Positions 31,449 through 46,572 of a stretch of 64,000 nt of DNA are shown here, piece by piece. The position numbers and the translations under genes are program-made. Position 1 is the first letter of the stretch, and every line of letters begins with the position of its first letter. The notes below the pieces were generated by a model. That model did no database searches. It was not told the origin of the DNA and saw only the letters and a program-made list of their open reading frames with translations. Source of the DNA: Actinomycetes bacterium (lineage in GTDB: Bacteria > Actinomycetota > Coriobacteriia > Anaerosomatales > JAGXFU01); assembly GCA_024637115.1 (NCBI GenBank), contig JAGXFU010000010.1:62001-126000 (forward strand), in the 5' to 3' direction.

Positions 31449-31682
31449 TTACGCCTTGCGTAGCGCCTCGAACTCCTCAGGCTGCCATCCGATGATCGCT
31501 TTCTCGCCCACCTGGATGACGGGTACCCCATGCTGCCCGGTCATGAGCACCATTTCTCGACGACCCGCGATGTCCTCGATGATATCGACCTCGGTGAACT
31601 CGATATCGTTGTCCACCAGGTAGGCTTTTGCCACTTTGCACCATGAACACGTCTTCGTTGTGAAGATACGCACACGTTTCAC
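31449..31682 (-). CDS. Glutaredoxin-like protein
   Basis: This 77-residue thioredoxin-fold protein has the redox motif CSWC (residues 12-15), the cis-Pro segment HGVPVIQVGEKAIIGW and a short C-terminal helix. It belongs to the small NrdH/Grx-like group of anaerobes. It overlaps the upstream tetR gene by four bases and is the last gene of the export operon, which is unusual company; a role in keeping a regulator or adaptor reduced is speculative. It converges with dnaB. Confidence 0.88.
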   Translation of the reverse strand: MKRVRIFTTKTCSWCKVAKAYLVDNDIEFTEVDIIEDIAGRREMVLMTGQHGVPVIQVGEKAIIGWQPEEFEALRKA

Positions 31683-44840: not shown

Positions 44841-44932
44841 TCGGGCACCACGGAACATGGTGGTGTAGACTCGCCCCAATCGCTGGGCAACATGGCGAAT
44901 TGGAGATGTCAGGTCCGGGGAGGACGGGTGTG

Positions 44933-45334
44933 ATGCGAGCGCGGAACACCGAGTCAGGTTTTAGTCTCGTAGAGTTGATGGTCGTTGTGCTGATCATCGG
45001 CGTACTCGTTGCCATTGGCGTTGCCGTGTTCGGTGGCTCCACCGAGAAGGCGCAACAACGCGCGTGTTTCAGCAACCAACGCATCATTGAAGGCGCCGCG
45101 CAGGCGTATTCCTCACAAAACGACGAGGATTTGAGCGGTCTTGTGGGAGTGGTAACTGGCACGCACCCACTCATCAATGACTACATCTTCCGCACGCCAC
45201 CGCGTTGCCCTTCTGCTCCTCAACCAGCCGATCCTGCCAACGTTACCGTTGCTACCGGTGCATACACGCTCGATGGTAACGGCAATGTCGACGCGTGCAC
45301 TCACGGATCCCCCGCGCACGGGCGATTCCGCTAG
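44933..45334 (+). CDS. Type IV prepilin-like protein
   Basis: ATG 44933 lies nine bases after GGGGAGG. The 133-residue product has a prepilin leader and N-methylation motif: ESGFSLVELMVVVLIIGVLV, with Gly before the mature Phe and Glu at +5. The short globular part contains four Cys (AC, RC, AC and context) that may form disulfides. No pilus motor, peptidase or platform gene is nearby, so it is either an orphan pseudopilin or a subunit of a distant system. It ends 124 bases before the msrA start. Confidence 0.88.
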   Translation: MRARNTESGFSLVELMVVVLIIGVLVAIGVAVFGGSTEKAQQRACFSNQRIIEGAAQAYSSQNDEDLSGLVGVVTGTHPLINDYIFRTPPRCPSAPQPADPANVTVATGAYTLDGNGNVDACTHGSPAHGRFR

Positions 45335-45437: not shown

Positions 45438-45458
45438 ATGCAACGGAGGGAGCCTTTG

Positions 45459-46157
45459 ATGTTGTTCTCCAAGCCATCGATCAGTGCGGATACAGATACA
45501 GTATCGTGCTCCGTGCCGCCCATTGATCTGGCGGTACCCGCAACGCTTCAAACCGCCACGTTCGCCGCAGGTTGATTCTGGGGTCCCGATGCCCGGTTCG
45601 GGCTCGTGGATGGCGTGTGGCGTACCCGGGTTGGATATGCCGGGGGTCGCGCCAGTGACCCGACATATCGCAGGATCGGGGATCATACGGAGTGCATCCA
45701 GATCGATTTCGATCCCGCGCGAATCTCCTTTGGGGAACTCCTCGATGCATTTTTCCAGATGCACAACCCCTCGCGCCCTGCGTACTCGACTCAGTACGCA
45801 TCACTCGTGCTTGCACACGATGACATGCAAGCCGATCTGGCCCGTGACGCCTGCAAGCGCTGGGGAGTGCTCCTTGGTCAGTCCGTCGAGACGGCTGTTC
45901 ACGCACTCGATCGCTTCTACGTTGCCGAGGACTACCACCAGAAGTACGGACTCCGCTCCGATACCTTCTTCATGAGCGAATTCAACGCGACACACCCTGA
46001 CCCCGCGGATTTTCGCGAGTCGACTGCCGCGGCGCGAGTTAACGGGTATCTGTACTCAGGAGGTTCCATCGCACGGCTGGACGCAGAGCTTGATGACTAT
46101 GGCCTGTCCAATGAGGCGACGGAACGCTTGAGAAGGCACGTGCAGCGAGCCGGTTGA
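45459..46157 (+). CDS. msrA: Peptide methionine sulfoxide reductase A, selenocysteine-containing (UGA = Sec39)
   Basis: The frame runs from ATG 45459 (six bases after GGAGGGAG) to the stop at 46157 with one in-frame TGA at 45573-45575. The sequence around it reads TATFAAG-[TGA]-FWGPDARFG: TGA falls exactly on the nucleophile of the MsrA motif GCFWG. After it, VGYAGGRASDPTYRRIGDHTE, NPSRPAYSTQYAS and AEDYHQKYGLR are fully conserved MsrA blocks with no decay. A hairpin with a GGU loop follows at the bacterial SECIS distance. The product (232 aa with Sec) reduces methionine-S-sulfoxide in proteins. msrB follows 19 bases later. Standard gene callers would split this into two pieces. Confidence 0.93.
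45573..45575 (+). other. Selenocysteine UGA codon
   Basis: In-frame TGA at codon 39 of msrA, at the catalytic Cys position of GCFWG. Confidence 0.92.
45584..45610 (+). promoter_or_regulatory. Bacterial SECIS-like hairpin in msrA
   Basis: TCCCGA, bulged T, GCCC, loop GGTTC, GGGC, TCG, bulged T, GGA: ten base pairs with two single bulges. The loop starts 20 bases after the TGA, with GG first, matching the distance and the GGU loop of the E. coli fdhF element; the bulged U on the 5' arm is also a SelB-recognition feature there. Confidence 0.85.
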
Positions 46158-46176: not shown

Positions 46177-46572
46177 ATGCCCAAGGTCATCAAGAGCGAC
46201 GATGAGTGGCGTTCTCTGCTCACACCAGAGCAGTTTCGCGTATTGCGACGCGCTGGTACCGAGCCGGCGTTCGAGGGTGAACTGACCGATGTGACCGATT
46301 CGGGAATCTATCGGTGTGCCGGGTGTAGTACGCCTCTCTTTTCCTCGGCAGATAAGTTCCATTCCGGATGCGGGTGGCCGAGTTTCACCCGGCCCGTCGA
46401 TCCCGATGCCGTCACGGAACACCGCGACGTGAGTTTTGGAATGGAAAGGGTCGAAGTGCTCTGCTCCACATGTGAGGGACATCTGGGCCACGTGTTCACG
46501 GATGGGCCCGCACCTCTGGGAACGCGGTACTGCATCAACTCCGTATCACTCGATTTCGACGCCGAGGAGTAG
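46177..46572 (+). CDS. msrB: Peptide methionine sulfoxide reductase B
   Basis: The 131-residue protein starts after GAGAGGAG. It has zinc-binding pairs CAGC and CSTC, the FHSGCGWPSF block and the active site GTRYCINSVSL, where the nucleophile is an ordinary Cys. It reduces methionine-R-sulfoxide, complementing the Sec-MsrA encoded directly upstream; together they repair both diastereomers. Confidence 0.96.
   Translation: MPKVIKSDDEWRSLLTPEQFRVLRRAGTEPAFEGELTDVTDSGIYRCAGCSTPLFSSADKFHSGCGWPSFTRPVDPDAVTEHRDVSFGMERVEVLCSTCEGHLGHVFTDGPAPLGTRYCINSVSLDFDAEE

Follow-up and report, generated by a model that had tools for sequence, protein, structure and literature searches.

The window considered here is a stretch of 64,000 nucleotides (nt) from an Actinomycetes bacterium of the order Anaerosomatales (class Coriobacteriia; contig JAGXFU010000010.1, positions 62,001 to 126,000), and it carries a gene for the methionine-S-sulfoxide reductase MsrA in which a single in-frame TGA occupies the codon of the catalytic nucleophile (Table 1). 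The frame opens with ATG at 45459 and terminates on a second TGA at 46155-46157 and, with the internal TGA read through, gives one complete MsrA of 232 residues, as had been proposed in an earlier note, made from the sequence alone, which described a selenocysteine (Sec) MsrA with its frame intact on both sides of the TGA. We consider it almost certain that this is an MsrA gene with a TGA catalytic codon, its product being a predicted selenoprotein decoded by way of SelB and a hairpin; the basis for this is the TGA at the nucleophile, the conservation of that TGA, the set of selA, selB, selD and tRNA-Sec, a constrained hairpin and a two-domain fold model.

In Pfam searches the product matched PF01625 (PMSR; 121.7 bits, residues 32-165) and, narrowly above the cut-off, PF20939, "Selenoprotein MsrA, helical domain" (residues 185-222; 24.5 bits against 23.7), a model that is weak in the relatives and was above its cut-off in one of the three long relatives scanned. 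Residue 39 aligns to the nucleophile column of the solved MsrA of C. (Alkaliphilus) oremlandii OhILAs (PDB 4lwj, 4lwk, 4lwl, 4lwm and 4u66), a structure model of the window protein aligns to 4lwj across residues 29-232, and Glu78 is the equivalent of the essential acid Glu55 (an offset of 23 from the C. oremlandii alignment). Across 50 rows hand-picked from the long forms, Glu78 and the other active-site residues downstream of the TGA are invariant, and the TATF..G motif directly before the TGA is nearly invariant among the relatives. Apart from column 39, no invariant or nearly invariant column of these rows holds cysteine (Cys), an arrangement of the 1-Cys type without a conserved resolving Cys; the other Cys of the window protein (17, 79 and 132, with none after residue 132) all lie outside the conserved columns. 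The entry for this gene in the protein database is a piece of 180 residues without the active site (P0002), just the truncated annotation that the earlier note had forecast. A second MsrA of the same genome is of Cys type and of another subfamily (L176, G000:C12:70921-71373; GCFWG with codon TGC; 199.4 bits). Ten candidates for additional genes with an in-frame TGA were listed when the window was scanned, and because that scan missed MsrA itself it excludes nothing.

Table 1. Features discussed in the text; positions are those of the window unless a locus or genome label is given.
Feature	Position	Strand	Basis
msrA, selenoprotein type, catalytic PMSR and C-terminal helical domain	45459..46157	+	Pfam, alignment, structure model
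In-frame TGA, predicted selenocysteine codon, residue 39 (GUFWG), nucleophile	45573..45575	+	sequence read; kept in relatives
GGAGG, putative ribosome-binding site, 9 nt upstream of ATG	45445..45449	+	read from sequence
Predicted selenocysteine insertion sequence (SECIS) hairpin	45583..45611	+	minimum-energy fold, codon constraint, pair counts, recoding control
msrB, Cys type, Cys119 in RYCINS	46177..46572	+	profile matches
Glutaredoxin-like protein, CSWC motif, candidate reductant	31449..31682	-	PF00462, 50.2 bits, above cut-off
Small type IV prepilin-like gene	44900-45334		TIGR02532
tRNA-Sec (UCA)	L009 7188-7280 = G000:C1:89187-89279	-	tRNA-Sec match
tRNA-Sec (UCA)	L009 9495-9587 = G000:C1:91494-91586	-	tRNA-Sec match
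selD, predicted selenoprotein, TGA in SSKAGUAAKWGP near protein start	L009 14361	-	profile match, sequence
Short TGA MsrA without helical domain	L135 (G036), L137 (G053), L148 (G067), L155 (G065)		length count
Short TGA MsrA without helical domain	L158 (G066), L159 (G042), L171 (G068), L174 (G063)		length count

A PF01625 profile search covered 99 genomes, the window's own and 98 relatives, comprising 69 of the order (own included) and 30 others of the same class. A match was found in 64 genomes, and a match with one internal TGA in 43, all of them within the order (the own genome and 42 others, 43/69); the TGA stands at the nucleophile codon in 43 of 43, and no TGA-containing match was obtained in the 30 same-class genomes outside the order. 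The comparison of homologues at this column, one of the checks named in the earlier note, thus speaks for its reading, as does the search for Sec-insertion genes described below. The best 80 loci found in genome_contigs hold TGA in 76 cases and Cys in 4, although one of the six search patterns held a Cys codon, which favours Cys forms if anything, and their titles name Coriobacteriia, other Actinobacteria, Syntrophomonadaceae, other Bacillota, Chloroflexi, Deltaproteobacteria, Nitrospirae, Planctomycetes, Synergistaceae and others. Among the relatives found, TGA is more frequent than Cys. Cys forms may be commoner in nature than the 80 loci suggest, because a Cys form enters a predicted-protein database intact, whereas a Sec form tends to be truncated there: among six database proteins retrieved, P0010 and P0037 are full-length with the Cys codon seen in L134 and L062, P0003 is also full-length and shows C, and the other three are truncated behind the active site. 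Four of 396 sampled Actinomycetota genomes have the two-domain TGA form at full length, and since these include the own genome and hence only three others, this form is uncommon in the phylum outside the order. The earlier note had called Sec-MsrA rare and, in an actinobacterium, notable; the rarity was overstated, TGA being commoner among the relatives found and Sec-MsrA long known. The find is solidly a further member of a known, fairly widespread Sec-MsrA family and not a rarity.

The own genome (G000; 2.31 Mb, 17 contigs, 92% complete) encodes the whole Sec set that the note had suggested looking for, with selA (607.9 bits), selB (370.7 bits), selD (368.6 bits, with one internal TGA) and two tRNA-Sec genes of anticodon UCA (73.4 and 67.6 bits) all on one contig. 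The selD TGA lies at what is presumably the usual Sec site of SelD, and the 42 nt that follow this TGA are predicted to fold with a hairpin of loop GGC. A multihaem cytochrome-like open reading frame (ORF; L009 7460-9388, +) separates the two tRNA-Sec genes; the copy behind selB has the lower score and more non-standard pairs than the other, and two strong copies are found in G057 and G058 too. Across the order, counting as strong a tRNA-Sec match of at least 60 bits, selA was found in 33 of the 43 TGA genomes and selA or a strong tRNA-Sec in 35; among the remaining eight, selD is above the cut-off with an internal TGA in six, the selD of G010 also having a TAG and this genome also a selB. G053, G055, G067 and G010 combine a TGA MsrA with a TGA SelD and yielded no selA at reported completeness of 93-98%, which is perhaps a matter of assembly gaps. 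Sec machinery does not in turn imply a TGA MsrA, because in 22 genomes of the order selA or a strong tRNA-Sec occurs without a TGA MsrA.

The window sequence behind the TGA is UUCUGGGGUCCCGAUGCCCGGUUCGGGCUCGUGG, and its best fold holds a hairpin that begins 7 nt after the TGA, with a core stem of five pairs (GCCCG/CGGGC, 45591-45595 with 45599-45603), a GUU loop (45596-45598) that begins 20 nt after the TGA, a bulged U (45590) and a lower stem. Bacterial SECIS elements have a G within the first two loop bases; G is the first loop base in the window, and among 111 distinct Sec sequences the loop reads GTT in 106, GTA in 2, and GCT, TTT and ATT in 1 each. The SECIS of Escherichia coli fdhF has a bulged U17 and a loop G23, and the spacing from bulged U to loop G in the window, 6 nt, is the same. 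The position of the loop falls within the range of 16-37 nt after the UGA that the available text of PMC10778597 gives for the bacterial apical loop (this and the papers cited below being drawn on for the parts of their text that were available).

Codon use in the 111 sequences was compared with that elsewhere in the same genes; of 125 rows, 8 were identical to others over the 93 nt and were not counted again, L150 and L177, without the motif, were dropped, L176 was skipped, and L165 (Cys, of another subfamily and cut at a contig end) enters the count of six Cys rows and not that of the five Cys rows of the subfamily. At the hairpin, Ala is GCC in 72/76 cases (726/1952 elsewhere), Ser TCC in 35/35 (319/1229), Arg CGG in 80/83 (438/1690), Phe TTC in 94/108 (494/719) and Gly GGG in 104/108 (304/1496), whereas for the Gly of codon 3, which lies outside the core stem, the figure is 19/96; within the own order alone the hairpin Gly is GGG in 37/40 cases against 130/583. 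Over 108 distinct rows, six pairs are formed in 88.7% of cells, against 78.0 in shuffles and at most 57.9 in slid controls, with a covariation of 0.289 against 0.123 in shuffles (0/500 as high) and at most 0.141 in slid controls, the main exchanges being G-C to U-A where Ala or Ser is encoded, C-G to U-A in the pair beneath and G-C to A-U beside the loop. When the sequences were recoded synonymously with each gene's own codons, the core stem formed in a mean of 5.8 of 111 (maximum 13, 200 runs) against 70 observed; with folded lengths of 33, 36, 39 and 42 nt it formed in 64, 70, 76 and 78 of the 111 Sec rows, and in 0 or 1 of the 5 Cys rows. Arg/Gln codon 7 and the wobble base of Phe codon 8 combine as 81 G-C, 14 A-T and 13 A-C (n=108), an association due in part to base composition or kinship, since the unrelated Phe codon 1 is associated too, more weakly (p 3e-4).

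Several results weigh against a Sec-inserting hairpin at this site. Of five pair-count measures, two do not stand out from shuffles, pairs with change on both sides numbering 4 against 3.0 (33/500 as high) and further pair types 10 against 9.6 (293/500 as high); all five core pairs are present in 83 of 111 rows, so that 28 break at least one; and the stability of the window hairpin is ordinary for its composition (z -0.68, 42/200 shuffles as good). The best RNAalifold structure for the 111-row alignment differs from the hairpin and includes the UGA itself, the hairpin having a folding term of -7.5 kcal/mol with a slightly unfavourable covariation term (+0.17 kcal/mol), and RNAalifold's own choice a score of -2.4. 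A test for independent branches had little power, with one or two starred pairs per hairpin test among the results listed, and a comparison with Rfam gave no known element at the site. On the side of the machinery, two TGA genomes, G008 (65% complete) and G064 (86%), have no Sec marker above cut-off. The hairpin is nevertheless retained, being favoured by codon use, by its covariation relative to slid controls and by the recoding control, and it is very likely a SECIS and the putative target of SelB.

Downstream, msrB follows msrA after 19 nt and, as the earlier note had read it, uses Cys; from the spacing, the two genes are likely to share a transcript. Upstream lies purE, with the prepilin-like gene in between. 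The glutaredoxin-like protein of the window had 17 of 17 NCBIfam matches under their cut-offs, and a Sec-glutaredoxin partner, sought in the own genome, was not found among three glutaredoxin matches (0/3 with TGA). We infer that selenium is inserted at residue 39: Sec-tRNA(UCA) carried by SelB would decode the UGA through the hairpin 7 nt behind it, to which SelB would bind, and the selenolate would attack methionine-S-sulfoxide with Glu78 as acid. A glutaredoxin, rather than thioredoxin, might then restore the oxidised enzyme, a route reported for the MsrA of C. oremlandii and suggested here by the lack of a conserved resolving Cys, and the adjacent MsrB would repair the R-sulfoxide.

Other explanations of the TGA have to be set against this one. 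Because a Cys-type MsrA elsewhere in the genome could cover the function, the gene might be decaying and its TGA a nonsense mutation, which is extremely unlikely given that 42 other genomes of the order share the TGA at this codon, and given the invariance of the downstream active-site residues in the 50 rows and the strong constraint on the hairpin codons. An assembly of 17 contigs at 92% completeness leaves room for a sequencing or assembly error, an idea whose probability is negligible when the same TGA recurs in those 42 genomes and in 76 of the 80 genome_contigs loci. It could also be supposed that termination is used and that the functional product is the downstream ORF of 180-183 residues starting from GTG (45606-46157), which is what the database holds as P0002; such a product would have neither the nucleophile nor the first strand, the codons of the TATF..G motif just upstream are nearly invariant in relatives, and we give this explanation practically no weight. 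Pseudogene, sequencing error and downstream-ORF use were accordingly rejected, on TGA conservation, invariant residues, constrained codons and the upstream motif.

The UGA might instead be read as Cys or Trp, through a change of code or through tRNA-Sec loaded with Cys when selenium is short. This is compatible with the sequence, and a Cys form of the subfamily exists in G014; the Sec pathway with tRNA-Sec(UCA) in the own genome, the termination of msrA itself on TGA and the constrained hairpin after the codon make it very unlikely, and decoding as Sec remains by far the preferred explanation.

Among the order's 43 TGA genes, the length from motif to stop is at least 185 residues in 33, 140-144 in 8 and 177 in one, with one gene cut by the end of its stretch; the stops of the eight short forms lie inside the fetched stretches. 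All eight belong to the genera g29 and g33 and make up one clade (support 98) in a quick catalytic-domain tree of 138 columns in which many forks are unresolved. Over the catalytic domain their identity to long forms is 51-67% (three best matches each). Two of them, scanned against Pfam, gave PMSR only. In seven of the eight a Cys close to the C-terminal end is followed by a last 4-9 residues, and our guess is that this Cys resolves the oxidised Sec. Two other Actinomycetota, G272 (L181) and G129 (L183), have an MsrA without helical domain and with TGA at the GxFWG nucleophile, L181 with a stem of seven pairs (GAGGCGG/CCGCCTC) after the TGA, and these are possibly independent Sec-MsrA lineages.

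The MsrA that G014 (99% complete) encodes is of the same subfamily and has Cys (TGT), its gene being an ordinary ORF of 280 codons, and none of selA, selB, selD and tRNA-Sec was above cut-off in that genome. In a quick tree that took in 107 of the 117 distinct rows and omitted L165, the eight short forms and one cut piece, the G014 MsrA lies inside the order's Sec clade (support 97). The five Cys rows require five changes in this tree, at least two of them forced by starred branches, and still five when the hairpin columns are omitted. This fits an older Sec and a repeated replacement by Cys, with counts that cannot tell gain from loss. We tentatively join these observations in a scenario that falls a little short of an even chance, in which Sec would be ancestral, with the hairpin encoded in the codons GCC-CGG-TTC-GGG, G014 would have gone back to Cys and lost its Sec machinery, and two genera would have lost the helical domain, a new C-terminal Cys serving as resolving partner of Sec.

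Sec-MsrA is a known selenoprotein (PMC1794560, PMC4333827, PMC4479559, PMC13188914, PMC9312934), listed since at least 2006, with a table entry for Syntrophobacter fumaroxidans (PMC1794560), a Deltaproteobacterium, as another bacterial Sec-MsrA in an anaerobe. Among the closest described systems is that of C. oremlandii, of another phylum, which shares with the window MsrA the catalytic and helical domains, the nucleophile TGA, the Glu acid and the lack of a conserved resolving Cys. It differs in that its MsrA, by the available text of PMC4333827, has no other Cys, and in that its Grx1 has Sec (U13; PMC4479559), whereas the three own-genome glutaredoxin matches have no TGA. Cys-type MsrA (TIGR00401; E. 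coli 1ff3, Mycobacterium 1nwa) has a Cys nucleophile and no helical domain (PMC4333827), and two resolving Cys are present in the E. coli type (PMC4479559). In the literature searched, which did not cover most subscription papers, we found no report of Sec-MsrA from this Coriobacteriia-named order. What is new is the Sec-MsrA member in an Actinomycetota order (the matching records being named Coriobacteriia); the kind of protein, its chemistry and the insertion rule were already known.

The finding places Sec-MsrA firmly in an Actinomycetota order where annotation can remove its active site, and offers a compact insertion signal, open to testing at each base, with compensatory changes over 111 distinct sequences. 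In G014, where the pathway is absent, Sec is replaced by Cys through a codon that differs from TGA by a single base, and the short forms of two genera raise the matter of how Sec-MsrA works without a domain described as essential in C. oremlandii (available text of PMC4333827). If the joint scenario is true, this MsrA family would be a selenoprotein by origin that is being remodelled within one order.
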